Source of the DNA: Steroidobacteraceae bacterium
GTDB lineage: Bacteria > Pseudomonadota > Gammaproteobacteria > Steroidobacterales > Steroidobacteraceae
Direction of reading: 5' to 3'
NCBI GenBank assembly: GCA_025451845.1
Contig: JANWJS010000039.1
Span: forward strand, 1 to 64,000
Length of the DNA stretch: 64,000 nucleotides
Numbering within the stretch: the stretch's first letter is position 1; each line of letters opens with the position of its first letter. The position numbers and the translations under genes are program-made. Positions 9,637 through 46,440 of this stretch are shown one piece after another. The notes under the pieces are model-generated. The model did not search any database, was not told the origin of the DNA, and worked only from the letters and a program-made list of their open reading frames with translations.

Positions 9637-10431
9637 TCAGACCGCCACCGGCGCGGCAATGGCGGGATGATGCTGGTAACCCACGAACTCGAAATCCTCG
9701 AAGTTGTAGTCGAACAGGGTTGGGGGCCGGCGCCGGATGTTGAGTCGCGGCGGCGGGAACGGAGCGCGCGCGAGCTGCAGCCTCGCCTGCTCGAGATGAT
9801 TGCGATAGAGGTGGCAGTCCCCGCCGGTCCAGATGAACTCGCCGAGCTCGAGGTCGCACTGCTGCGCGAACATATGGGTGAGCAGGGAGTAGTTCGCGAT
9901 GTTGAACGGCACACCGAGGAATACATCCGCGCTGCGCTGATAGAGCTGGCATGACAGCCGGCCATTGGCCACGTAGAACTGGAAGAGGGCATGGCACGGC
10001 ATGAGGCGCATCTGCTCGAGCTCGCCCACGTTCCAGGCGCTGACCAGGATGCGGCGGGAGTCCGGATTGTCGCGCAGCTGCTCGAGCGCCACGCGGACCT
10101 GATCGATGGTGCGCCCGTCGGGCGCCAGCCACGAGCGCCACTGCTTGCCGTAAACCGGCCCCAGCTCGCCGCGCTCATCGGCCCACTCGTCCCAGATGCT
10201 GACCCCCTGATCGTGCAGCCACGCGACATTGGTGTCGCCCCGCAGGAACCAGAGCAGCTCGCAGATGAGCGAGCGCAGATGGATGCGTTTGGTCGTGACC
10301 AGCGGGAAACCCTGCGACAGATCGAAGCGCAGCTGCTGGCCGAAGAGCGACAGTGTCCCCGTGCCCGTGCGGTCACCCTTGTGCGCGCCGCTTTCCAGGA
10401 TGCGGCGCATCAGATCGAGGTAAGGTTTCAT
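9637..10431 (-). CDS. thyA: Thymidylate synthase
   Basis: This 264-residue protein, the same length as the E. coli enzyme, methylates dUMP to dTMP using methylenetetrahydrofolate. Visible marks are the [13 protein letters not shown] loop, the catalytic-cysteine segment [12 protein letters not shown], and the dUMP-binding [15 protein letters not shown] stretch. It starts 10 bp after lgt, the order seen in many gammaproteobacteria (lgt-thyA). Its stop is one base from the SET methyltransferase start. The product feeds DNA synthesis, and the oxidised folate by-product is recycled by folA at the end of the same run. Confidence 0.96.
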
Positions 10432-24410: not shown

Positions 24411-24863
24411 CTACCCGGCGGCGGCTTTGCCGACCCGCACCGCGAGAACGTCGCAGGGCGCTGCATGGAGGACGGTGTCCTCCGTGAAGTTCACCAGAAT
24501 CGAAAGGCCGTGACGCTCGCGGCTCCCGAGTATGATGAGGTCGCTCTGGCGCTCGCGCGCCACACGTACGACCTCCGCCTTGACATTGCCGGACTCGACG
24601 CGGTGCGGGGCATCGCGCAGGCCGAGCTCCTCCGCCAACGCGGTGAGACGCTGACGTGCGCGACCCAGCAATTCGTCCTCGATGCGGACCGCCGGCATGA
24701 GTGTCTCGCCCATCGGCTCTACCGGCATGAATTCCACGACGTGCAGCAGCTCGACCTCGGCGCCCAGCGTCGCCGCGAGATCGCGTGCGCGCCTGCCGAT
24801 CTGCAGGCTGTCCTCGGTCAGGTCGACGACGAGCAGGATGCGACGGTACGGATACGTGGACAT
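24411..24863 (-). CDS. Universal stress protein (UspA family)
   Basis: This 150-residue protein is a single Usp domain. It starts [13 protein letters not shown], where the usual DGS is changed, and ends with [33 protein letters not shown], which keeps the family's GSxxRxG-like loop. It stands between rsmA and apaG, which are normally adjacent, so it looks like an insertion into a conserved operon. It lies 44 bp after rsmA and 11 bp before apaG on the same strand. Function is generally tied to stress survival. Confidence 0.9.
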
Positions 24864-33329: not shown

Positions 33330-34054
33330 GCGTCGATTACAACCCCAGCGCGGCCATCTCGGCCAAGGCAGCCAACGCGGCCATTGCGACGGGCTCGCCC
33401 GTGGCGGATCAGGCGCGGCTGGCGCCGTCGCGTCCGATTCCTCCGCACTTGGTGCGCCATCTCGGATTCGTGGAGTACGAGCCGACGTGGCGCGCCATGC
33501 AGCGCTTTACCGACGAGCGTGGCCCCGATACACCGGATGAGATTTGGTTTCTCGAGCATCCGCCGGTATTCACGCTTGGCATGAACGCAAGCCGCGATCA
33601 CGTGCTCGCCCCGGGCGACATTCCTATCGTGCAGATCGACCGCGGGGGGCAGGTTACCTACCATGGGCCCGGCCAGCTCGTGGTCTACCCGCTCGTGGAT
33701 CTGCGGCGTGCGGGCTTGGGCGTGCGCGATATCGTCACAGCGCTCGAGCGCAGTGTCATCGATTACGCTGCGCAGCTCGGCATCGCTGCTGAATGCCGCA
33801 AGAGCGCGCCCGGCGTCTACGTGGCTGGCAGAAAGCTGGCGAGCGTAGGCATCCGGGTCCGCCGCGGTGCCAGCTACCACGGGCTGGCCCTGAACGTCAG
33901 CGTCGACCTCGAGCCATTCCACCGCATCAACCCCTGCGGCTACGCCGGCCTCGAGATGACCCGGCTGGCCGACCTGAGCCCGCTCGATTCCGTGAGCGCC
34001 GCCGCCGACGGCGTGAAGCCGCACCTGCTGCGGCACCTGTACGGACGGGTATAA
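33326..34054 (+). CDS. lipB: Octanoyl-[acyl-carrier-protein] transferase
   Basis: The enzyme moves octanoate from ACP to lipoyl domains, the step before LipA. It has [28 protein letters not shown], the conserved lysine in [10 protein letters not shown] and the catalytic cysteine in [14 protein letters not shown] at 33326 is taken as start: it overlaps the lipA stop and an AAGAAGG ribosome-binding site lies upstream. That leaves a poorly conserved 40-residue N-terminal extension; a shorter start cannot be excluded. Confidence 0.93.
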
Positions 34055-34133
34055 CCGATCTGTCACCGTCTGCCGACTGACTGCATAACTGCGCCTGTTC
34101 CAGCATTGCCCGCTATCCCTGATAGGAGTGGCA

Positions 34134-35168
34134 ATGCAACTCGTCAACAGAAACCTGCCCCGCGCAGCCGTGCTGGCCATCGTAGCGCTCGCCATTGCCG
34201 CCGTCTCCGGCTGTTCCCGCCCGGCCGCTTCCGGCGTGAAACTCCTCAACGCCTCGTACTCAGCGACACGCGAACTCTACGGCGAGTACAACGCCGCCTT
34301 CGAGAAGTACTGGAAGGCCAAGACCGGCCAGACCGTGCATGTGAGCATGTCCTATGGCGGCTCGGAGCTGCAGGCGCGCTCCGTCTCAGAAGGCCTCGGA
34401 GCCGACGTGGTCACGTTGGCTTTGGCGGCGGACATCGACGTCATCGCACAGGAGGGCAAGCTGCTGCCGCTCAACTGGCAGACACGCCTGGCGGACGACA
34501 GCTCCCCTTATACCTCGACGATCGTTTTCCTCGTGCGCAAGGGAAATCCCAAGGGCATCCGGGACTGGAGCGATCTGATCAAGCCCGGCGTCGCCGTCGT
34601 GACGCCGAACCCGAGGACCTCCGGCGGGGCACGGTGGAACTTCCTCGCCGCATGGGGCTGGGCGCTGAAACAGCCCGGGGGAAATGAGGCCAGCGCCGAA
34701 AACTATCTGCATGAGCTCTTCCGGCACGTCCCGGTGCTGGACACGAGCGCCCGCGCTGCGACCACGACATTCGTGCAGCACGGACTCGGAGACGTACTCA
34801 TCGGTTGGGAGAACGAGGCGTTGCTCGCCATCCGCGAGAAGCCGAATGAAGGCCTGACGATCGTCTACCCGTCCGTGAGCATCCTCGCGGAGCCGCCGGT
34901 TGCGGTAGTAGATCAGTATGCCCTGGCTCATGGCCAGCGCCCGCTCGCGAGCGCTTACCTCCAGTACCTATATAGCAAGGAAGGGCAGGAGATCATCGCC
35001 CGTAACTTCTACCGCCCACGCGACCCTGAGGTCGCCGCGGAATTCGCCAAGCAATACCCGAAGATCGACCTGGCAACCATCGCGGACTTCGGCGGCTGGT
35101 CGAGCGTGCAGCGGAAGTTTTTCGCGGACGGGGGTGTGTTCGATCAGATTTACGCGCGAGGACAGTGA
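34134..35168 (+). CDS. Sulfate ABC transporter substrate-binding lipoprotein
   Basis: This 344-residue protein binds periplasmic sulfate. It carries the Sbp/CysP patterns LLNASYSATRELYGEYN, VSMSYGGSELQARSV, TPNPRTSGGARWNFLAAWG and a C-terminal NFYRPRDPEVAAEF. The signal sequence ends in a lipobox (AVSGC), so it is a lipoprotein rather than a free periplasmic protein. ATG at 34134 has an AGGAG site five bases upstream. It stands alone, 5 kb from the cysTWA genes it presumably serves. Its 3' end overlaps the converging Abi-like gene by 19 bp. Confidence 0.93.
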   Translation: MQLVNRNLPRAAVLAIVALAIAAVSGCSRPAASGVKLLNASYSATRELYGEYNAAFEKYWKAKTGQTVHVSMSYGGSELQARSVSEGLGADVVTLALAADIDVIAQEGKLLPLNWQTRLADDSSPYTSTIVFLVRKGNPKGIRDWSDLIKPGVAVVTPNPRTSGGARWNFLAAWGWALKQPGGNEASAENYLHELFRHVPVLDTSARAATTTFVQHGLGDVLIGWENEALLAIREKPNEGLTIVYPSVSILAEPPVAVVDQYALAHGQRPLASAYLQYLYSKEGQEIIARNFYRPRDPEVAAEFAKQYPKIDLATIADFGGWSSVQRKFFADGGVFDQIYARGQ

Positions 35169-36184: not shown

Positions 36185-37633
36185 TCATTGCGTAGCGGCC
36201 CCCTCGGCGAGCGGCCATGCGTCGGAGTGGGATACTTGGGACCAGCACCTGTTGACGTCCGGCCCGGCGACCAGCTCGGCAAGCCGGCGGGCGTGCTCGC
36301 GTAACTCCGGGACGGCGGTGGCCTCCCAGTGACGCGCGCGCAACCAGGGGCCAACGTAGTAGAGCCCTTTGCTGACACTGCCGTCTGCGGCCATGGTCTC
36401 GCCTGCATCCGTCACACGAATGCCGAGTTCGAGGGGATCCGGTGTGATGAGGCCGCTGGCCAGCAGCGACTGGACGAGTGTGTTGTCGGATCGAGCCGGG
36501 TGATAGTCGGGGCCGGTGCAGTTGAATATCCGTCCCACAACGACGCGCTCGCGTTGCTGAGCGCCCCTCGGCCGCCATACGACCTCGATCCCGGCGCGCG
36601 TGATCTTTGCGCTCTCGATGGAGCCGGCCCGGATGGCGAGCCTGCCGGCATGCTGCATCCGCTGCAGCTCCTGCGCGGCCGCTGGCGGCAGCCTATGGCG
36701 ATGGACGTCCCATATGGGGCGCACGTGCCGCAGGAACCGCCGGCGGTCCTGAATGCTGAGACCGGCCCAGAGCTCGGGAGCGATCCTGCGCACCGCGTTG
36801 ATGACTTCGCGCCAATCGCCGCCCGCACCGTTGGCCTGATCAGACAGGGCATGCACGATACTCACGAGCTCGCGAAGCGAGCCGCCTGCGGCTCGAATCG
36901 ATGCAACCGCCCCGGCGCGCAGTGGTGCTCGGCTGAATGCGCTCTGTGGCTGTGGCAGACGGCCGTGCCGCGACAACGCCAGGATCTCCGGAGGCTCTGG
37001 CCCGCGTAGCGCCAGGCGCAGGGCAACATCGGCTGCCGTAAGACCTGTGCCGAGCAGGAGGACGCGTTGCGGCGCCCTGTTGGGCCTGTCCTGCGGCCAT
37101 GGGGTCCAGGGATCGTGTACGTACCAACGCGTGCCGCGGATCGCCTGCAGCGCCGCCAGGCGCGCGGGGCGCGGATTGCCGGTAGCGAGCACGACCTCGT
37201 CGGCGAAGAGCAGGTGACCATCGTCGAGGTCGATCCGCCAGGCGCGGGCACGGCTGTGAAGCTGCGTGAGGCGGCTGACGCGGCCCCAGATCCGGGCGTA
37301 CGCCATTCTCGAAGACTCGATGGCTTCCTGCAGGCTGGCGCACAGGTAACGGCCATAGAGCGCCCGCGAGAGAAAGTCCTGCGCGCCGATGCGCTTGCCC
37401 TGCCGCCGGGCGAAATCGACCAGCTCGCCCGGCCGGGAGGAATCGAGCGACATGTGAGCGGCCGGAACGTTGAGCAGCCAGTCCTGATGGCTGGGGGAGT
37501 AGGCCAGGCCGGCGGCCATCTCCATCTGGTCGTCAATCAACACGATCCGCGCGGGGGTGTGCGCGTATCGCAGCAAATGAACAGCGGTCGCCGTTCCCGA
37601 GAATCCTGCACCGATGATCGCGATGGTCCGCAT
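36185..37633 (-). CDS. FAD/NAD(P)-binding protein (YdhS-like)
   Basis: This 482-residue protein has an N-terminal FAD-binding Rossmann motif (IAIIGAGFSGTATAVHLL), a central second dinucleotide motif (VLLLGTGLTAADVALRL) and the FNCTGPDY stretch typical of the FAD-NAD(P)-binding family that includes YdhS. The substrate is not known for this family. ATG at 37633 has GGAG eight bases upstream and is preferred over an ATG six codons earlier. It starts 18 bp after the peroxiredoxin-like gene, so the two probably act together in a redox task. Confidence 0.78.
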   Translation of the reverse strand: MRTIAIIGAGFSGTATAVHLLRYAHTPARIVLIDDQMEMAAGLAYSPSHQDWLLNVPAAHMSLDSSRPGELVDFARRQGKRIGAQDFLSRALYGRYLCASLQEAIESSRMAYARIWGRVSRLTQLHSRARAWRIDLDDGHLLFADEVVLATGNPRPARLAALQAIRGTRWYVHDPWTPWPQDRPNRAPQRVLLLGTGLTAADVALRLALRGPEPPEILALSRHGRLPQPQSAFSRAPLRAGAVASIRAAGGSLRELVSIVHALSDQANGAGGDWREVINAVRRIAPELWAGLSIQDRRRFLRHVRPIWDVHRHRLPPAAAQELQRMQHAGRLAIRAGSIESAKITRAGIEVVWRPRGAQQRERVVVGRIFNCTGPDYHPARSDNTLVQSLLASGLITPDPLELGIRVTDAGETMAADGSVSKGLYYVGPWLRARHWEATAVPELREHARRLAELVAGPDVNRCWSQVSHSDAWPLAEGAATQ

Positions 37634-37651
37634 ACGCTCATCTCCATCCAT

Positions 37652-38263
37652 TCAGGCCCACCGCCGCGGCGGCTGGAAGATCATCCTGCCGGAGCAGCGG
37701 TAGAAAAGTCCGTCGAAACGGGGTGACAAACGGGTGTCAGGAGGCGGTGCCTCCCTGCTCGCCGCGCTGTGATCACGCTTGCGCAGAGTCACCGCCCAGC
37801 CAATCAGGTCGAGCGGTGAGGGCAGCTCGTCCATCGGGCGATACCTCAGCGTGCGGCGGCAGCGCAGATTCGAATCGACGATCAGCGCGCAGCGCGGTCC
37901 GTGGCGGCCGATTTGAGCGCGCAGCGCGCCGGCGGAGAGATCCGCGACAGCCCCGGGCCGCGGCGGGTCGAGCGTCAGCGCCGCCGCGGACGCAGGGCCG
38001 AGCTCGGCGAGGCCGCCGATCCACCCTTGTCCGAGCTCATACCCATCACGCGACATGGCCACTGCAGTGACGCCGCGCTCCGCAAAGCTGCGACTGAGGA
38101 TGCTGAGCCAGCGATCCATTTCCAGCTGCTCCTGCGCGAAGTCATCCGGGTGCGAGAAGAGGATGGCCCATCGGCCGGCCAGCCACGCGCGCAATGAAGC
38201 CGCGTCGCAGACCTGCTTTGTGGCAAGCCGCAGCCGGCCGCCCGCAATTACCACTGAATTCAT
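37652..38263 (-). CDS. Peroxiredoxin-like protein lacking the peroxidatic cysteine
   Basis: The first 110 residues follow the Prx6/1-Cys peroxiredoxin pattern: GRWAILFSHPDDF, then FAERGVTAVAMSRDG, and CALIVDSNLRCRRTLRYRP. Where active enzymes have PxxxTxxC directly after the F, this protein has AQEQLEMD, so the peroxidatic cysteine is replaced by glutamine. Classical peroxidase activity is not expected. A perfect AAGGAGG ribosome-binding site lies four bases before ATG 38263. It is encoded with a FAD/NAD(P)-binding protein. A decayed copy of its 3' end lies just upstream. Confidence 0.7.
   Translation of the reverse strand: MNSVVIAGGRLRLATKQVCDAASLRAWLAGRWAILFSHPDDFAQEQLEMDRWLSILSRSFAERGVTAVAMSRDGYELGQGWIGGLAELGPASAAALTLDPPRPGAVADLSAGALRAQIGRHGPRCALIVDSNLRCRRTLRYRPMDELPSPLDLIGWAVTLRKRDHSAASREAPPPDTRLSPRFDGLFYRCSGRMIFQPPRRWA
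37680..37740. repeat. Direct repeat copy 1, within the 3' end of the Prx-like gene
   Basis: This 61-bp stretch is 41/61 identical, without gaps, to 38310-38370, exactly 630 bp away. It contains AAAGTCCGTC and the inverted repeat TGACA-N6-TGTCA (37724-37739). In this copy it encodes the last part of the peroxiredoxin-like protein (DTRLSPRFDGLF and following residues). Confidence 0.65.
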
Positions 38264-38678: not shown

Positions 38679-39974
38679 ATGAGTACCTTAGTCAAGACCG
38701 GAGTCATGGCCGCGCTCGCCGGCGTGGGCCTGGCGGCCGTGTTGCATGCCGACGATGCGAGGGCGGACGGCGCTTTCCAACTCAAATCAGCGGACGGCAA
38801 TTTTTCCGGCAGCCTCACCGGCCGTTTGGAGTTCGACGGCTACTATGACAACAACGACAATCGCAGCAAGATCGGCAGCGGCGTGGCCGGCTCGGACTCG
38901 AGTGACAGCTTCAGATTCCGGCGGGCGTGGCTCACCCTCGCTGGTAATGTGTACAGCTTCGACTACCACGTCGATTACGACTTCGTCGCCAATACGCTGC
39001 AGCGCGCGTGGATCTCGCACGAAGTGCTGCCTCACGGCACGCTCTATATTGGGCAGGACAAGCCCTGGGCCAGCCTGGACGAGATCGCGAGCGATACCGA
39101 GACGCCCTTCCTGGAGCGCAACATTGCATCCTCCAGCGGGATCAATTCGGTCGCGACCTATACCAACGGACTCTACTACGCCTGGAACAACCGGCTCTTC
39201 ACGGAAGAAGACAACGTGTGGATCGGGCTCTCGGGATCGTCCTTGCACAAGCAGTCAGGCGGCGCTGATAGCAGCACGCAGGGCACGGCGTTCAATGCGC
39301 GCGTCGCGTACGCGCCGATCGTCGAGAAGAATCGCTGGCTCCATTTTGGAGTGTCGTTCATCAACGCGAATGCCGCTGCCGGCAGCACGACGGCAGGTAC
39401 GAACGCGCTCCTGGTCAGCTATGTGTACGGCAACCACTTCGACAGCGACGAGAAGCTGACACTCGCGAACTATCCCGTCTCGAGCACGGGCACGAGGCCG
39501 CATTCGAACACGCTCGGAGGGGAGCTCGCCGCAGCCTACGGACCGGGGTACCTGCAGGCTGAATACGACGACGCCAAGTTCCACGAGGCCGGAGAGCCGG
39601 ACAATACGGTGAAAGCCTACTCCGTGACCGGCGCAGTCATGCTGACGGGCGAGACGCGTCCCTACAAGCCAGGGGATGCCAGTTATGGCGGGATCACGCC
39701 GGGGCACGCTTATGGAGCCTGGGAGCTCGCCGTGCGCTACGAGAAGGCCCGCAATGACGGGAACGATGGTGTGTTCAAGGGGCTCGCGCTGCCGGGCGTG
39801 AAGGCGTCACTTGCGACACTGGATCAGGTGACGCTGATCAGCGCGGGAGTAAATTATTACCCCAACGCGCACGTGCGGTTCATGCTCGACTACGAGCATG
39901 GCAAGGCCGATCTCGGCAAAGCGGGGACCGACAGCCCCAACACCGTAGAGGCTCGCGCACAGCTCACCTTCTGA
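38679..39974 (+). CDS. OprO/OprP-type (phosphate-selective family) porin
   Basis: This 431-residue protein has a signal peptide ending near HADDARA, then alternating beta-strand sequence, and a C-terminal aromatic residue (AQLTF) typical of outer-membrane barrels. Patterns such as SFRFRRAWLTLAGNVYSFDYHVDYDF and YIGQDKPWASLDE are those of the Porin_O_P family. Family members favour anions such as phosphate or polyphosphate, but selectivity cannot be read here. It faces the cysTWA/two-component operon and has a similar phased repeat upstream, so sulfate or another oxyanion is a plausible cargo. Confidence 0.87.
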   Translation: MSTLVKTGVMAALAGVGLAAVLHADDARADGAFQLKSADGNFSGSLTGRLEFDGYYDNNDNRSKIGSGVAGSDSSDSFRFRRAWLTLAGNVYSFDYHVDYDFVANTLQRAWISHEVLPHGTLYIGQDKPWASLDEIASDTETPFLERNIASSSGINSVATYTNGLYYAWNNRLFTEEDNVWIGLSGSSLHKQSGGADSSTQGTAFNARVAYAPIVEKNRWLHFGVSFINANAAAGSTTAGTNALLVSYVYGNHFDSDEKLTLANYPVSSTGTRPHSNTLGGELAAAYGPGYLQAEYDDAKFHEAGEPDNTVKAYSVTGAVMLTGETRPYKPGDASYGGITPGHAYGAWELAVRYEKARNDGNDGVFKGLALPGVKASLATLDQVTLISAGVNYYPNAHVRFMLDYEHGKADLGKAGTDSPNTVEARAQLTF

Positions 39975-40080: not shown

Positions 40081-40755
40081 TCAATCCGCTACGAGCTTGT
40101 ATCCGGCTCCCGAGGCGGTCTGCAGCCGCTGCGGGGCGGCGGGATCGGCTTCGATCTTCTGCCGCAGCCGGTGGACCAGCTGCTTCAGGAGCTGCCGGTC
40201 GCCGGAGCCGCGGTGACCCCAGACGTGCACCAGCAGCCTGTCGGAGCTCACTGTTCGTCCGGCGCTGGCGAGAAGCATCTGCAGGAGCCGCAACTCGAGC
40301 TTGGTGAGGCGGATAGCGTCCGCCTCACCGATCCGCACCGTGTGCTCTTCGGTATCGATGGTCAGCTTCCCCACCGACAGGAGTGACGGGCTCTCCGTGC
40401 CTGCCCGGCGCAGCAATGCCTTGGCGCGGGCGAGGAGGGTGCGCGGACTGAAGGGCTTGGTCAGGTAGTCATCGGCTCCGAGCTCCAGTGCGCGCACCAG
40501 GTCCTCTTCCTCTCCGCGAACGGTGAGCATCATGATGGGCACGCGCGATTGGCGGCGGATCGCTTCGCAGACCTGGAAACCGCTCGCGCCCGGCATGTTG
40601 ATGTCGAGAATGACGAGGTCCGGCACCTCGTCGGCCACGGCCCGCAGGGCGGCCGGGCCGTCCGGGGCCTTGATGATGAGATAGCCTGCCTGCGTCAGCG
40701 TGAAGCCGACCAGCTCGCGCAGATCGCGGTCATCGTCCGCCACCAGAACCTTCAA
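40081..40755 (-). CDS. OmpR-family response regulator
   Basis: The 224-residue protein has a receiver domain with acidic pocket ADDDRD and phospho-acceptor Asp51 in VILDINMPG, and the conserved lysine in DYLTKPFSP. The C-terminal winged helix (RLTKLELRLLQMLLASAGRTV through SGAGYKLVAD) is of the OmpR/PhoB type. It overlaps the kinase gene by four bases and ends the cysA-cysT-cysW operon. OmpR-type regulators bind direct repeats with an 11-bp period; such repeats occur at 46403-46430, upstream of the operon. Confidence 0.93.
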   Translation of the reverse strand: MKVLVADDDRDLRELVGFTLTQAGYLIIKAPDGPAALRAVADEVPDLVILDINMPGASGFQVCEAIRRQSRVPIMMLTVRGEEEDLVRALELGADDYLTKPFSPRTLLARAKALLRRAGTESPSLLSVGKLTIDTEEHTVRIGEADAIRLTKLELRLLQMLLASAGRTVSSDRLLVHVWGHRGSGDRQLLKQLVHRLRQKIEADPAAPQRLQTASGAGYKLVAD

Positions 40756-42854
40756 GCAGTCACCCCCAGGGGTAGGATCATCGTGAACCGGGTCCGATTC
40801 TCGTCGGTGCGCTGCACGCCCACCGTGCCGCCGTGCCGTTCGACGATCGAGCGTACGATCCAGAGCCCCAGTCCGAGTCCACCCGGCTCCGGCTCATGCT
40901 CGGCGCCGCGGTGGAACGGCGCGAACAGTCCTTCCCCGGCGGGCGAGGCCGGCCCCGGACCCTCGTCCTCCACCCAGATCGCCAGACGGCCTTCATCCGC
41001 TTCGCAACCGATGCGCACGGTGCTGCCTTCCGGCGCGAACTTGTTGGCGTTGGCGAGCAGGTTCACGAACACCTGCGCCAGCCGGTGCTTGTCGCCTTCG
41101 ATGAGCGGCAGCTCCTCGGGAAGCACGACCTCGAGCTGTTGTCGCCGCTGCGCCAGAAGCGATCCGATCAGCGTCCGCGCATCCTCGATGACCTCGGCCA
41201 GATCGACGCTCTGGCGGCGGATGGCGAGCTGGCCGGCCTCGATCCGGACGCTCTCGAGGAGATTATCGATGAGCCGTGTCAGGCGCAGCGTGCCACGCTG
41301 CAGAGACTCGGTGAGCTCCCGGCGCTGCGCGGCCTGCATGGTCTCCAGATTATCGAGCAGCAGCTCGATGGAGGCGAGCTGCGCGGCCAGTGGAGTGCGA
41401 AACTCGTGCGAGATGTTGGCCAGCACGGAGTCGCGCGCGCGGCGCACGGCCTCGAGCTCCGTCTCGTCACGGATGACCTGCACCTGGAGTCCTTCCACGA
41501 GGTCGGAGCTCGTCACGACGGCGGTGCGCGTCTCGTTGCCGCGTTGCAGCCGCTCCACGCACTGCGCGTTGCCGGCGGAACGGGCCTGCAGGATCGGACA
41601 GCGGTAGTCGCAGGGACGACGGCCGTCCTCCGCCAGGGGCTTGAGGACATCGCCGCAGAACCGGCCGACGGCGTCCTGCGGTTGCAGCCGCAGGAGCCGA
41701 GCGGCCTGCGCGTTGAGATACCGGATGTTGCGCTGCTCGTCCACCGCATAGACGCCCTCGACGATACCGGCGAGCACCGCCTGCGCCTCGGCCTCGCGCA
41801 GCCGCAATGTTCCGGTCAGCTCCAGAAGGCTGCGGCGCATGTCCTCCATGGTGCGGGCGAGCGCGCCGACCTCCGCGGCGCCGCCGGGTGGAATCGAGAC
41901 GGAAAAATCGCCTCGTCCGATGCGCACCGCCGAATTGGTGAGCGCCTTGACCGGCCCGACGACCCGCCGACTCAGGATTGTGCCGGCGAACACCGCGAAC
42001 GCAGCGAGAATTAGCGTCGTCACGACCAGACGGCGGATGAGCCGGGTCGTCGAGCTCTCCACGAGGCTGATGGACGTGCCCGCATCGATGAAGCCGATGG
42101 CCTCACCGCTCGCTGCAAAGAGCGGCACGCTCGATTCATAGACTCCCAGGGAATCGATCCGGCGCACCGCCGCGTGCCCATCCGCGAGGGCTGCCGCATA
42201 AAGCGCCGTGTATGCGTTCACCGGGTCAGCGGTGTAGGAGCGATAATCGACGAAACTCACCTGAGTCCCCACACGCTGTGTCAGCTCCTGCGCCAGGCGC
42301 TGATCCAGGAGCCGGAGGACGTAGATGTGGACGCCCGCGACGCCCGGCATCGATAAGAAGGCGCCGAAGGCGGCCGACCGGATGTTGGTTGGCAGGGCGA
42401 GGAAAGTAGGACCCTGCTCCGCGCTCTGCGACCTGATCCCCTGCCAGTCGAGCGCCGGTCCGGTCGCGGCGAGCAGTGTCGCGTCGGAGAAGACAGCGCA
42501 CGCATCGAGCTGGGAGGTATCGCAGAACCGCCGCAGGAAGGGAGCAATGGCCTGATCCTGGCGCTCGGCAATCAGCCGCTGCAGCGTGGGACGCTGCGCC
42601 AGGACGCGCGCTGACGTCAATGCGTCCTCCGTCATCCGACGCACGTCTTCATGGGCGGTAGCGCCCGCGAGAAGGACCCGTGCCTTGCCCTGCTCGTCGG
42701 CGAGCACGCGCAGCATGCCGATCGCGGTGGCCGACAACCCGATGCCGACGAGCAGTACCAGCACCACATGGACGGCGACCATCCACCAGCCGAGGCTAGT
42801 GTTGGCCGGATCCGGCCAGAGCAGGCTCAATCGGTGCCGGAGGAAGGCGATCAT
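40752..42854 (-). CDS. Membrane histidine kinase with PAS domain, in the sulfate transporter operon
   Basis: The 700-residue kinase has a membrane helix (residues 21-45), a periplasmic sensor of about 230 residues, a second helix (274-296), HAMP (297-350), PAS (355-460), the phospho-acceptor H-box with His483 (SHEFRTP) and an ATP-binding domain with the N-box NLLANANKFAP and GLGLGLWIVRSI. The PAS domain contains four cysteines (400, 415, 419, 432), which could bind metal or sense redox. The gene starts four bases after cysW, so sulfate uptake and signalling are co-transcribed. The ligand is unknown. Confidence 0.92.
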   Translation of the reverse strand: MIAFLRHRLSLLWPDPANTSLGWWMVAVHVVLVLLVGIGLSATAIGMLRVLADEQGKARVLLAGATAHEDVRRMTEDALTSARVLAQRPTLQRLIAERQDQAIAPFLRRFCDTSQLDACAVFSDATLLAATGPALDWQGIRSQSAEQGPTFLALPTNIRSAAFGAFLSMPGVAGVHIYVLRLLDQRLAQELTQRVGTQVSFVDYRSYTADPVNAYTALYAAALADGHAAVRRIDSLGVYESSVPLFAASGEAIGFIDAGTSISLVESSTTRLIRRLVVTTLILAAFAVFAGTILSRRVVGPVKALTNSAVRIGRGDFSVSIPPGGAAEVGALARTMEDMRRSLLELTGTLRLREAEAQAVLAGIVEGVYAVDEQRNIRYLNAQAARLLRLQPQDAVGRFCGDVLKPLAEDGRRPCDYRCPILQARSAGNAQCVERLQRGNETRTAVVTSSDLVEGLQVQVIRDETELEAVRRARDSVLANISHEFRTPLAAQLASIELLLDNLETMQAAQRRELTESLQRGTLRLTRLIDNLLESVRIEAGQLAIRRQSVDLAEVIEDARTLIGSLLAQRRQQLEVVLPEELPLIEGDKHRLAQVFVNLLANANKFAPEGSTVRIGCEADEGRLAIWVEDEGPGPASPAGEGLFAPFHRGAEHEPEPGGLGLGLWIVRSIVERHGGTVGVQRTDENRTRFTMILPLGVTA

Positions 42855-42858
42855 GGGA

Positions 42859-43731
42859 TCACGGCTGGCGATCCCCGGTCCGCTCCACCAGAGCCTTGAG
42901 GGCCAGGGTGGCGAGCGCGAGCAGGGTGAGGAGCGAGGCGACCGCGAAGGCACCGGTGAAGTCGTAGTCGTTGTAGAGTGCCTCGATGGCGAGCGGCATG
43001 GTATTGGTCAATCCCCGGATATGGCCCGAGACCACCGACACGGCACCGAATTCTCCCATGGCGCGCGCATTGCAGAGAATGACTCCATAGAGGAGCCCCC
43101 AGCGGATCTTCGGCAGCGTGACCCGGAAGAAGGTCATCCACGCTCCGGCGCCCAAAGTGATGGCCGCCTCTTCCTCGTCATCGCCGAGCTGTTGCATGAG
43201 CGGGATGAGCTCGCGCGCCACGTAGGGGGAGGTCACGAAGAGCGTCGCGATCATGATACCCGGTGTGGCGAAGATGATGCTCACGCCGTTCGCGGCCAGC
43301 CAGGCGCCGAACCAGCCCCGCATGCCGAAGAGCAGCACGAACAGCATCCCCGAAATGACCGGGGAGATGGCGACCGGCAGATCGATGAGCGTGACGAGCA
43401 GGGTCTTGCCGCGGAACTCGAATTTGGCGATCGCCCAGGCCGCCGCGAGGCCGAAGACGGTATTCACCGGCACCACCACGAGTGCCGTGAGGAGCGTCAG
43501 GCGGATGGCCGCCTGGGTGTCGGGGTCCGCGAAAGTCTGCAAGTACTTCTGTACACCACTGTGGAACGCACTGGCGAATACGACCGCAAGCGGTGCAAGG
43601 AGCAGCGCCGCCAGGAACGCGACAGAGAGTCCGATCAGGCACCGGCGCCCCAGCGCGCTCAACACCGTCGCGCGTCCCGGGCGGCCCGCGAGCTCCTGGA
43701 GCGATCCCGGCGCGGCACCCGCGGCAGTCAT
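42859..43731 (-). CDS. cysW: Sulfate ABC transporter permease CysW
   Basis: This 290-residue inner-membrane permease has six hydrophobic segments and the ABC-contact EAA loop DEEEAAITLGAGAWMTFFRVTLP. Other family marks are LIDLPVAISPVISGMLFVLLFG and NARAMGEFGAVSVVSGHI, typical of CysW. It pairs with CysT and the ATPase CysA. ATG at 43731 overlaps the cysT stop. The histidine kinase gene follows after four bases. Confidence 0.94.
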   Translation of the reverse strand: MTAAGAAPGSLQELAGRPGRATVLSALGRRCLIGLSVAFLAALLLAPLAVVFASAFHSGVQKYLQTFADPDTQAAIRLTLLTALVVVPVNTVFGLAAAWAIAKFEFRGKTLLVTLIDLPVAISPVISGMLFVLLFGMRGWFGAWLAANGVSIIFATPGIMIATLFVTSPYVARELIPLMQQLGDDEEEAAITLGAGAWMTFFRVTLPKIRWGLLYGVILCNARAMGEFGAVSVVSGHIRGLTNTMPLAIEALYNDYDFTGAFAVASLLTLLALATLALKALVERTGDRQP

Positions 43732-44564
43732 TGCTCTCCGCGGGCCATGCGAGCGTGTCCCCACGTCTGCAGGAGATTGATGGCGAGGAGGATGACGAAC
43801 GATGCCGCCAGCATGACGAACCCGAGCGCCGCCGCCCCACGGTAGTCGAACTCCTCCAGGTGCATCACGATGAGCAGCGGAGTGATTTCGGTCCGCAGAG
43901 GCAGGTTGCCGGAAATGAAGATCACGGAGCCGTATTCGCCGAGCGCGCGCGCGAACGCGAGCGTGAATCCCGTGAGCAGAGCGGGCAGCACGGAGGGGAC
44001 GATCACCGTGCGGAATACGTACCAACGGCCGGCCCCCAGTGTCTCCGCGGCATCCTCGAGATCACGCTGTACTTCGAGGAGCGCGGGCTGCACGGTGCGC
44101 ACCGCAAACGGCATTCCGATCAGCGTCATCGCGAGGATGACGCCAAGACGGGTATAGGCGACATGAATGCCCGCCAGATCCAGGTAGTGGCCGAGCCAGC
44201 CGTTGGTCGAGAAGACGGCGGTGAGCGCGATGCCAGACACGGCGGTAGGCAGCGCGAACGGCATGTCGATGGCCGCATCCATCAGCCTCCTTCCCGGAAA
44301 CTCGTAGCGCGCGATCGTCCAGGCGATGATGAAACCGAAGACGAGATTGATGCATGCGGCGATCAGCGCGCCGCCGAATGATAGCTCATACGATGCGAGT
44401 GCCCGCGGGCTTGCGATCGCGGCGAGAAGCTGCTGCAGCGGCGTCGAGCCGGCGAGCAGCATCAGCGCGGCGAGCGGCAGCAGCACCACCGCACTCAGGA
44501 AGAAGGTCGTGAATCCCAGCGTCAGCCCGAATCCGGGCAGGACGGTGGGTTGTCCGTCTCTCAT
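43728..44564 (-). CDS. cysT: Sulfate ABC transporter permease CysT
   Basis: This 278-residue permease has about six membrane segments, the AIDMPFALPTAVSGIALTAVF stretch, the EAA loop DLEDAAETLGAGRWYVFRTVIVP and ARALGEYGSVIFISGN, all characteristic of CysT/CysU. It forms the membrane channel with CysW. It starts seven bases after the CysA stop and overlaps cysW by four bases. Molybdate permeases are related but normally single; the T/W pair supports sulfate or thiosulfate. Confidence 0.94.
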   Translation of the reverse strand: MRDGQPTVLPGFGLTLGFTTFFLSAVVLLPLAALMLLAGSTPLQQLLAAIASPRALASYELSFGGALIAACINLVFGFIIAWTIARYEFPGRRLMDAAIDMPFALPTAVSGIALTAVFSTNGWLGHYLDLAGIHVAYTRLGVILAMTLIGMPFAVRTVQPALLEVQRDLEDAAETLGAGRWYVFRTVIVPSVLPALLTGFTLAFARALGEYGSVIFISGNLPLRTEITPLLIVMHLEEFDYRGAAALGFVMLAASFVILLAINLLQTWGHARMARGEQ

Positions 44565-44571
44565 GATCCGC

Positions 44572-46356
44572 TCACGCCGCGGAGCGGCTGTGCGCCGGCG
44601 CCCCCCGCTCGCGATGGACCAGCAGCACCGGCCAGCGCGCCATGGCGAGCAGCGCCGCGAGCTCGCTGGTGAGTTGGCTCGTGCTCGCCACGCCGACGAT
44701 CAGCATGTGCCCCGGCGACTCGCTCAGGCGCTGCTCCAGGGCTTGTGCGGCCACGCCGAATCGCAGCTCCGTCCTGATCTCGAGTCCATGCGCGGCACGC
44801 GCTTCCGAGCGCGCATCGAGCAGGGCACGGATGCCGAACGATCGTTCGGCTGTCGAGGTCTGCTCCGGGAGCACGTCGATGTAGATCGCTTCCGCCGCAA
44901 GATGTCGCAAAACGCTAGCGGACGCCGCCAGCGTTGCGCTGCGCGCGGATTCGTCCGTCCAGTGGATGAGTACCCGCTGCGGCGCGGGCGCATGCTCCGG
45001 CAGGATAAGGATTTCCTCTACCCCATGCTCCAACAGCCACTTGGCATCCGAGGCCACACCGGCGCGCGCCCCGATCACGGCCGTTCCCGGCAAGGCCGCA
45101 GTGCTGTCACGGCTCGGTGTCGAGGCTCCCAGCATCGGCTCCAGGTGCTTGCGGATGCGTGTCTTCATGCGCGAGGAGAGATCGAGCAGCAGGGAATTGC
45201 CGGCGAGCCTCTCGGCGGCAGAGCTGTTGGGCGCGCAGATCGTAAAGCTGGAAAGAGGTGTCGGCAGGACATGTGCCCGCCGGACGCCGATCGTGACGCT
45301 CTGGCCCCGACTGATCGCGAATGCGCGTTGCTCGAACTGCGGGCGCGTCGTTTCGATGAGCACCGCGCCGTCCCCGTTGGCATGCGCAAGAATCGGAGCG
45401 TCGGGCTGCTCGTCGAGGCGGATGCGTGCCCGCTCCAGCGCGCCGGTGAAGAGCACCTCTTCGACGACGCCGCGTCCCAGGAAATTGGAGCACGCCAGCG
45501 TCTCGCTCGAGCGCGCGATCTCGATCTCCTCGGGCCGTACGACTGCGACGACCTCCCGCTCCCGCGCGCCGCAGGCACCAGGACCGTGCACAGCCGGCCG
45601 TGCTCCCCAGCGTGGCCCGTCGCTGCCCTGCCGGGCGAGAATGAGGTTGGCCGCGCCGAGGAACGTCGCCACGAACCGTGTCGTCGGGCGGGTATAGAGA
45701 TCCTGCGGTGTACCGCTCTCGAGCAGCCGCCCGCAGTTCATCACTCCAATCCGATCGCCCATGGCGAACGCTTCCTCCTGATCGTGCGTCACCAGAATCG
45801 TCGTGATGCCGAGCTCGCGCTGCACCTCGCGGATGGTGCGCCGCAGTCCCTCGCGAATCTTGGCATCGAGCGCGCCGAACGGCTCGTCGAGCAACAGCAC
45901 CTGCGGCTCGTGCGCGAGCGCCCGCGCCACGGCCACGCGCTGCTGTTGTCCGCCGGAGAGCTGCGCCGGCAGCCGCTCGTCCATCCCTTCCAGCGCCACC
46001 AGGCGCAGCAGCTCCTGCCGCCGCCGCCGCCGCTGCGCCGCACGCACCCGCCGTACCCGCAGCGCGAATTCGATGTTCTCGCCGACCGTCATGTGACGGA
46101 ACAACGCGTAGTTCTGAAACACCAGTCCCACGCCGCGCCGCCGCGCCGACACATGCGTCACGTCACGTCCGTGCAGCGCTATACGCCCATGATCCAACCC
46201 GGAGAGCCCCGCGATCGCCCGCAGCAGCGTGCTCTTCCCGCTGCCGCTGGGGCCGAGGAGCACGAAGAACTCCCCATCCCCGATCTCGAGCGAGACATCG
46301 TTGACGACCGGGACGCCCTGGTAGCGCTTGGTCAATTGATCGAGAGTGATCGACAC
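44572..46356 (-). CDS. cysA: Sulfate ABC transporter ATPase CysA fused to a Usp-like domain
   Basis: Residues 1-235 form the ATPase: Walker A GPSGSGKS (35-42), signature LSGGQ (133-137), Walker B LLLDEP (154-159) and His191. Residues about 270-360 are a TOBE-like regulatory domain. At 594 residues it is about 230 longer than a normal CysA. The extra part (366-582) looks like a partial Usp-like segment followed by a fuller one (RVLIHWTDES at 461-470, then HMLIVGVAS and WPVLLVHRE). The Usp ATP loop (GxxGx9GS) is not seen. The start is GTG at 46356, only two bases after the predicted transcription start. Confidence 0.9.
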   Translation of the reverse strand: MSITLDQLTKRYQGVPVVNDVSLEIGDGEFFVLLGPSGSGKSTLLRAIAGLSGLDHGRIALHGRDVTHVSARRRGVGLVFQNYALFRHMTVGENIEFALRVRRVRAAQRRRRRQELLRLVALEGMDERLPAQLSGGQQQRVAVARALAHEPQVLLLDEPFGALDAKIREGLRRTIREVQRELGITTILVTHDQEEAFAMGDRIGVMNCGRLLESGTPQDLYTRPTTRFVATFLGAANLILARQGSDGPRWGARPAVHGPGACGAREREVVAVVRPEEIEIARSSETLACSNFLGRGVVEEVLFTGALERARIRLDEQPDAPILAHANGDGAVLIETTRPQFEQRAFAISRGQSVTIGVRRAHVLPTPLSSFTICAPNSSAAERLAGNSLLLDLSSRMKTRIRKHLEPMLGASTPSRDSTAALPGTAVIGARAGVASDAKWLLEHGVEEILILPEHAPAPQRVLIHWTDESARSATLAASASVLRHLAAEAIYIDVLPEQTSTAERSFGIRALLDARSEARAAHGLEIRTELRFGVAAQALEQRLSESPGHMLIVGVASTSQLTSELAALLAMARWPVLLVHRERGAPAHSRSAA

Positions 46357-46364
46357 GCCGCAGC

Positions 46365-46430
46365 ATCGTACCGGCGCCCCTCCGGGGCGTCAGTCGCGTA
46401 CCGGTTACCGCCCGGTGACAAAATGGTGAC
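46365..46430 (-). promoter_or_regulatory. cysA operon promoter with three 11-bp-phased repeats
   Basis: On the minus strand -35 CTGACG (46388-46393) and -10 TACGAT (46365-46370) are 17 bp apart, with a start predicted near 46358. Directly upstream, plus-strand repeats GGTTAC (46403), GGTGAC (46414) and GGTGAC (46425) recur every 11 bp, the layout bound by OmpR/PhoB-family regulators. The operon itself encodes such a regulator. A hairpin with GCGCCCC/GGGGCGT arms (46374-46390) overlaps the spacer. Confidence 0.55.
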
Positions 46431-46440
46431 GCCCGGAGGC

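Follow-up and report, generated by a model that had tools for sequence, protein, structure and literature searches.

What is a universal stress protein (Usp)-like module doing at the end of a sulfate importer ATPase? The question is raised by cysA-Usp, a gene in the 64,000-nt window that we analysed (positions 1 to 64,000 of contig JANWJS010000039.1, from a Steroidobacteraceae bacterium), in which the genes cysA-Usp, cysT, cysW, a histidine kinase and a response regulator follow one another on one strand. We give a probability of ~ 0.5 to the reading that the ATPase of this CysTW importer, an ATP-binding cassette (ABC) transporter, uses its tandem Usp-like module as a signalling arm that informs the co-encoded kinase and, through it, the regulator of a putative regulon marked by a DNA box. 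The basis throughout is sequence computation and predicted models, and many of the relatives are metagenome-assembled genomes (MAGs). Feature coordinates are collected in Table 1.

Residues 1-368 are a complete CysA/MalK-type ATPase, with a nucleotide-binding domain and a C-terminal OB/TOBE-type domain. In a whole-chain structural alignment, residues 9-368 align to 4tqu, PotA and the 1z47 CysA. The initial annotation had described a CysA whose N-terminal ~ 360 residues are normal and which carries an extra C-terminal segment; the 594-residue gene in an operon with cysT and cysW confirms this, as do the Pfam matches and the structural alignment. The ATPase scores below the NCBIfam CysA cut-offs (TIGR00968, 312.1 vs. 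342.75 bits; NF008105, 295.1 vs. 502), and for this reason the name CysA rests on the operon, in which CysT, CysW, and the sulfate-binding protein each score over their own cut-off.

The extra segment had been read as a partial Usp-like unit followed by a fuller one, to be checked by structure prediction. Prediction and structural alignment returned a Usp-like fold, and a profile-profile comparison (hhalign) of the module with nine Usps gave an E-value of 9.8e-6 and a probability of 82.5. No Pfam or NCBIfam family matched residues 353-594 of the window protein. Pfam Usp (PF00582) found nothing in it at E ≤ 1, and matched 9 of 31 relatives at that threshold, the best at 4e-4. A PDB sequence search with the module profile gave nothing at E ≤ 10, so the fold rests on prediction. 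A Usp alpha/beta fold in two units, the first of them partial, is thus supported by the models, by hhalign, and by the Usp matches of the relatives. In or just after helix alpha-2 of the second unit stand the highly conserved charged residues R510, D514, R516, H523, and R528 (46-47 of 49 rows). Alignment A1 comprised 31 of 46 module sequences, with near-duplicates and rows running past stops omitted. The window was aligned with 48 of 70 named loci in A2, including the shortened modules of loci L100 and L106 and not that of L102, and with 43 named loci in A3. Elsewhere in the window there is also a single Usp gene that stands on its own (24435-24848, minus strand).

The Usp ATP loop had been noted as missing. 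Indeed, the motif G-2x-G-9x-G(S/T) was present in none of the 49 module rows, though the same strict pattern passes in only one of nine ordinary Usps and fails in the other eight. This is weak evidence against the principal competing explanation, namely that the module is an allosteric brake that binds a nucleotide or sulfur metabolite (for example adenylylated sulfate or ATP/ADP) and inhibits the ATPase, while the kinase has no contact with the module and regulates expression only. Importer ATPases commonly carry regulatory domains at the C-terminus, and those of MetNI or ModBC inhibit the ATPase. The C-terminal domain of the cation-chloride cotransporter KCC, which matches the module fold, has a mapped ATP/ADP pocket (excerpt of PMC8280820), and in the tandem Usp TTHA0350 even a unit whose motif is degenerate binds ATP (excerpt of PMC3673472). 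We judge such a brake to be the best of the alternatives and still unlikely, for reasons that emerge from the distribution of the module.

Of 200 genomes sampled from the family, 65 carry relatives of the module; in the order sample 32 of 246 do, and these span three families. Most lie within open frames of ~ 550-700 residues. Named carriers are Steroidobacter, Peristeroidobacter, and Povalibacter, alongside many MAGs; the environmental bacteria Povalibacter uvarum DSM 26723 and Peristeroidobacter have the operon. Among the 48 of 69 named loci with at least 6.5 kb downstream (L120, whose module gave no match, was omitted), cysT lay 12-2531 bp downstream of cysA in 48/48, and sbp was present in 46/48. 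The initial annotation had asked how regularly a two-component system adjoins the fusion: the kinase was found in 44/48 loci and the regulator in 44/48. In the family sample, 87 of 200 genomes carried CysT at E ≤ 1e-80, and these divided into 57 with module and kinase, eight with the module only, none with the kinase only, and 22 with neither. Five of the eight module-only genomes have contigs that stop before the kinase position and are uninformative; in the remaining three the module is broken, through a deletion in G178 and G198 and through an in-frame TAG in G008. The kinase-only genomes G154 and G194 are incomplete, with contigs that begin just before the kinase or inside cysW. The order sample had the kinase in 32 of 246 genomes, 30 of them shared with the module; those with a module and no kinase match were G008 and G036 (contig end). 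Importer, kinase, and OmpR/PhoB-type regulator are encoded together and inherited together.

Whole-operon inheritance could by itself produce this co-occurrence if the module were mainly structural, serving ATPase dimer stability or assembly, and tandem Usps do form dimers (excerpt of PMC3673472). Ordinary CysA proteins of the same family nevertheless manage without it: 16 of 20 loci drawn from the 22 genomes with neither gene carry a CysA of 351-371 residues in an sbp-cysT-cysW-cysA operon. The other four showed no CysA (L180, L188) or a partial one (L185), all at contig ends, or an unrelated ATPase as best match (L177).

A class-wide search of 369 genomes with the module profile returned two genomes of the family and eight weak matches elsewhere (E 1e-5 to 1e-3). 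For six of the eight, frames were inspected, and five of these matches lie in proteins that by eye are Usps rather than CysA fusions; for L163 the inspected frames did not include the one with the match. In L163 and L164, from other Gammaproteobacteria, the weak matches adjoin genes that resemble SulP-type permeases by eye; the L164 match sits in a tandem Usp protein, so a Usp-SulP pairing may be another transporter-Usp link. Separately, in L120 (~ 10001-10250), from a Nevskiaceae-labelled MAG, the cysA frame runs into ~ 35 residues resembling, by eye, the end of the response regulator, as if a deletion (or a misassembly) had removed cysT, cysW, the kinase, and all but the last part of the regulator.

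Four of the 48 loci lack a neighbouring kinase: L100, L102, L106, and L121. The L121 genome keeps its kinase elsewhere (E 3e-98), and its module is intact. In the genomes of the other three, the best kinase matches are generic cores without the sensor (34-36% identity, E ~ 1e-31 to 1e-33), and the modules lack residues 499-534, 492-522, and 507-535, so that most or all of helix alpha-2 is gone, together with the conserved R510, L512, L513, D514, and R516. Otherwise these shortened modules are preserved: the reading frame is intact, the second unit is complete outside the gap, and the 14 other invariant residues that were checked are all there. The adjacent cysT and cysW matched nearly full length. 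Helix alpha-2 is present in every other one of 66 aligned proteins; that alignment omits two of the 48 loci, L080 and L082, which are open at the 5' end and whose modules are covered by tblastn (query residues 1-225 and 1-220). G178 is the L106 genome and G198 the L100 genome, and the loci L141 and L142 coincide with L106 and L100. A further candidate, L035 of G008, shows no kinase match, and its module is interrupted by a TAG. Since its cysW and sbp appear frameshifted too, general decay or sequencing error may be the explanation, and it was not counted.

Neither competing account predicts this pattern. A brake leaves unexplained why helix alpha-2 was lost exactly where the kinase was lost, and why no CysT-bearing genome has the kinase without the module. 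In favour of a brake, the three genomes without the kinase still conserve the linker and the first unit, and some of the module therefore probably has a role at the transporter that does not depend on the kinase. If the role were purely structural, there would be no reason to expect the module to be lost jointly with kinase and box; highly conserved charged residues also lie in and just after the lost helix, and we consider a structural role quite improbable. It gains something from the possibility that the shortened loci trace to one event. FastTree placed L106 beside the kinase-bearing L087 (support 0.97); a more careful tree, in which the window row has an unusually long branch, left the L106 branch open, and monophyly of the three shortened modules was not rejected (approximately unbiased test, p = 0.103). 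We therefore do not claim two independent losses.

Upstream of cysA, a period-11 direct repeat was observed in 47 of 64 regions compared to ~ 15 in shuffles. Periods 9, 10, 13, and 22 stayed close to their counts in shuffles or exceeded them slightly, and period 12 was raised too (33/64 vs. 17). The pattern.RTHAC.....TRTHAC., which was derived from the same upstream regions, occurs in 55 of the 64 compared to a mean of 0.05 in shuffles. When the matrix was scored leave-one-out, the five lowest regions were those of L110 (short upstream region, kinase status not known), L100, L106, L102, and L121. The three best matrix matches in the window precede sbp (34050), the flavoprotein gene (37722), and cysA (46414), of which the training set held only the cysA site. 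With one mismatch allowed, the consensus TRTMACCNNTTTRTMACC has exactly these three sites in the 4.4-Mb genome, and the reversed pattern has none. Period-11 direct repeats are typical of PhoB-type regulators, which is why we take the box before the importer genes to be regulator-type and the putative site of the response regulator.

The box is narrowly distributed. Across 1.03 Mb of named loci, 82 matrix matches fell before cysA (69), sbp (6), the flavoprotein gene (6), and elsewhere (1). Among loci outside matrix training, 7/7 from order-level genomes that have the kinase contained it, in one case at a distance of 2.8 kb from cysA. It was absent in 20/20 ordinary cys loci, in the kinase-less L035, and in L171 and L172; of the kinase-lost loci in this held-out set, L035 alone was new. 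Among eleven other genomes, the strict consensus was found twice in G074 and once each in G028 and G003. It was not found in seven genomes in which no kinase ortholog was found (G178, G198, G383, G020, G094, G029, and G083); G029 had two matches to the reversed control pattern.

Several observations weigh against a signalling arm. The matched losses are few, namely three genomes and perhaps one event, and since those genomes also lack the box, the entire regulatory circuit may have decayed, taking the module with it, rather than the module having been lost for want of a kinase to contact. G010, which has module and kinase, has no strict-consensus TRTMACCNNTTTRTMACC site. G263 and G329 (L171, L172) carry a divergent kinase-regulator pair and no module; the 15-16 kb retrieved for each contains neither cysA, cysT, nor cysW, and no box. 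L121, with its module intact and kinase present, has no box before cysA; its genome has a weaker site (17.3) instead, at the place where the relocated kinase is encoded. Read the other way, this one genome fits protein-protein rather than promoter coupling. Finally, the kinase's own large N-terminal sensor region could sense sulfate or the sulfate-binding protein without the transporter.

If the module is a signalling arm, the scheme might run as follows. ATPase cycling, or stalling for lack of sulfate, would move the module or alter how accessible it is. In its second unit, helix alpha-2 and the strand after it would contact the cytosolic part of the kinase, directly or through a partner, and the kinase would set the phosphorylation of the response regulator. 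The regulator would then bind the boxes before cysA, sbp, and the flavoprotein gene, matching importer synthesis to sulfate supply. This would work as Pst-PhoU-PhoR does for phosphate, with a Usp module covalently attached to the ATPase in place of PhoU. The computed results underlying the scheme are the predicted fold, the conserved operon, the co-occurrence of module and kinase, the matched loss, and the narrowly distributed box. That the module is whole where the kinase is kept suggests that the importer itself may report sulfate flow. The initial annotation had proposed that the module may sense a metabolite or contact the kinase: a link to the kinase gains indirect support from near-perfect co-occurrence and the matched helix loss, while we infer the physical contact, as we do the direction of signalling, the binding of the box by the regulator, and sulfate as the signal. 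More tentatively, and at somewhat less than even odds, we suggest a sulfate-specific transceptor, in which a pseudo-Usp arm reports flux to a dedicated kinase with a one-locus regulon, and alpha-2/beta-3 of the second unit form the kinase interface that is deleted where the kinase is lost.

Signal flow might also be reversed, with the kinase controlling the transporter through the module by means of its own sensor. The tandem Usp Rv2623 binds the FHA domain of an ABC transporter and is proposed to restrain it (excerpt of PMC5549992), and the Usp TeaD is reported to regulate TeaABC. However, the kinase already has a likely output in its DNA-binding regulator, given the boxes that precede the transporter genes, and we find this reversal very improbable.

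Table 1. Features of the cysA-Usp locus and its predicted regulon (window coordinates)
Feature	Coordinates	Strand	Evidence or remark
sbp, sulfate-binding protein gene	34128..35168	+	NF008022 437.8 bits, cut-off 288
FAD-NAD(P)-binding protein, predicted same regulon	36185..37651	-	Pfam NAD_binding_9 E 2.8e-30; box before homologs in six named loci
OmpR/PhoB-type response regulator	40081..40755	-	Pfam Response_reg, Trans_reg_C
Histidine kinase, 700 aa: putative periplasmic sensor, HAMP, PAS with three conserved Cys, HisKA, HATPase	40752..42854	-	
cysW, sulfate permease subunit, 290 aa	42859..43731	-	TIGR02140 386.3 bits, cut-off 329.1
cysT, sulfate permease subunit	43728..44564	-	TIGR02139 367.3 bits, cut-off 246.1
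cysA-Usp, 594-aa sulfate-importer ATPase with C-terminal tandem Usp-like module	44572..46356	-	GTG start 46356, stop at 44572
Residues 1-368, ATPase domain and TOBE-type regulatory domain	45253..46356	-	Pfam ABC_tran E 1.1e-35, TOBE_2 E 3e-4
Linker RRxHVLPTPxSS, residues 359-370	45247..45282	-	R359, H362, L364, P365, T366, P367 invariant in 49 rows
First, partial Usp-like unit (predicted), residues 369-452	45001..45252	-	Structure model and tandem alignment
Second, fuller Usp-like unit (predicted), residues 459-581	44614..44982	-	Model, single-Usp alignments (module residues 105-230), profile match
Helix alpha-2 of second unit (predicted), residues 502-523, contains RALLDARSEARAAH	44788..44853	-	Missing in kinase-lacking relatives
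Box CGTCACCATTTTGTCACC, period-11 direct repeat	46414..46431	-	75 bp before cysA start; weaker third repeat adjoins at 46403
Box TATAACCGATCTGTCACC	34050..34067	+	78 bp before sbp
Box TGACACCCGTTTGTCACC	37722..37739	-	88 bp before flavoprotein gene

Among the neighbouring genes, the kinase has three nearly invariant cysteines in its PAS domain, in FCGD and RPCxxxCPI (50-51 of 52 sequences), and two conserved cysteines in the sensor region (44 and 47 of 52). In the numbering of a longer 733-residue frame these are 433, 448, and 452, and 144 and 152. These residues suggest that the kinase receives a redox or metal input, and they may form a metal/redox site and a disulfide. Pfam gave a single weak match to the sensor, sCache_3_2 (E 0.024). 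The flavoprotein gene is close to the regulator in relatives, and the same box stands 5' of its homologs in L052, L066, L071, L074, L082, and L089. A Porin_O_P gene lies near the window operon (38679-39974, plus strand), and in L113 a 485-residue gene, by eye maybe for an outer-membrane protein, lies between cysA and sbp (+3 to +1460 from the cysA end).

In the part of the open-access literature that we searched, neither a sulfate transporter-linked two-component system nor a Usp-like domain on an ABC importer ATPase turned up. Up to residue 368 the protein is equivalent to an ordinary CysA with a C-terminal TOBE/regulatory domain; ordinary CysA proteins of the same family differ in ending at ~ 351-371 residues, in their sbp-cysT-cysW-cysA operons, and in belonging to genomes in which no kinase was found. 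Tandem Usps (TTHA0350, UspE, Rv2623) differ from the module, whose first unit is partial, which lacks a canonical ATP motif, is fused to an ABC ATPase, and shares 7-20% identity with them. The C-terminal domains of the cotransporters KCC and NKCC belong to secondary transporters of animals, without a histidine kinase. KdpD also has a Usp domain without a triphosphate-binding motif, linked to the two-component system of an ion importer (excerpt of PMC8214093), but there it lies inside the kinase and binds cyclic di-AMP, with the sensor motif (A/G/C)XSXSX2N(Y/F), whereas here the Usp-like module is on the transporter ATPase.

The closest parallel is PstSCAB-PhoU-PhoR/PhoB, where a nutrient-oxyanion ABC importer is likewise tied to a histidine kinase and a PhoB-type regulator; PhoB boxes, too, are period-11 direct repeats. 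How an ABC importer relays its transport state to a histidine kinase is unsettled even for phosphate. In Pst, the conformation of the transporter is the proposed signal, and Pst and PhoU are proposed to inform PhoR, a kinase without a large periplasmic region (excerpts of PMC5775613), whereas the kinase here has a large putative one. The present system differs further in its sulfate genes and in carrying a tandem Usp-like module covalently on the ATPase rather than a separate PhoU. It seems to place its signalling arm directly on the ATPase. Natural variants exist in which one helix is missing along with the kinase, and the DNA-box readout is very narrow, with three sites in one genome. If this is true, it would be a sulfate counterpart of Pst-PhoU-PhoR with the adaptor built into the ATPase.
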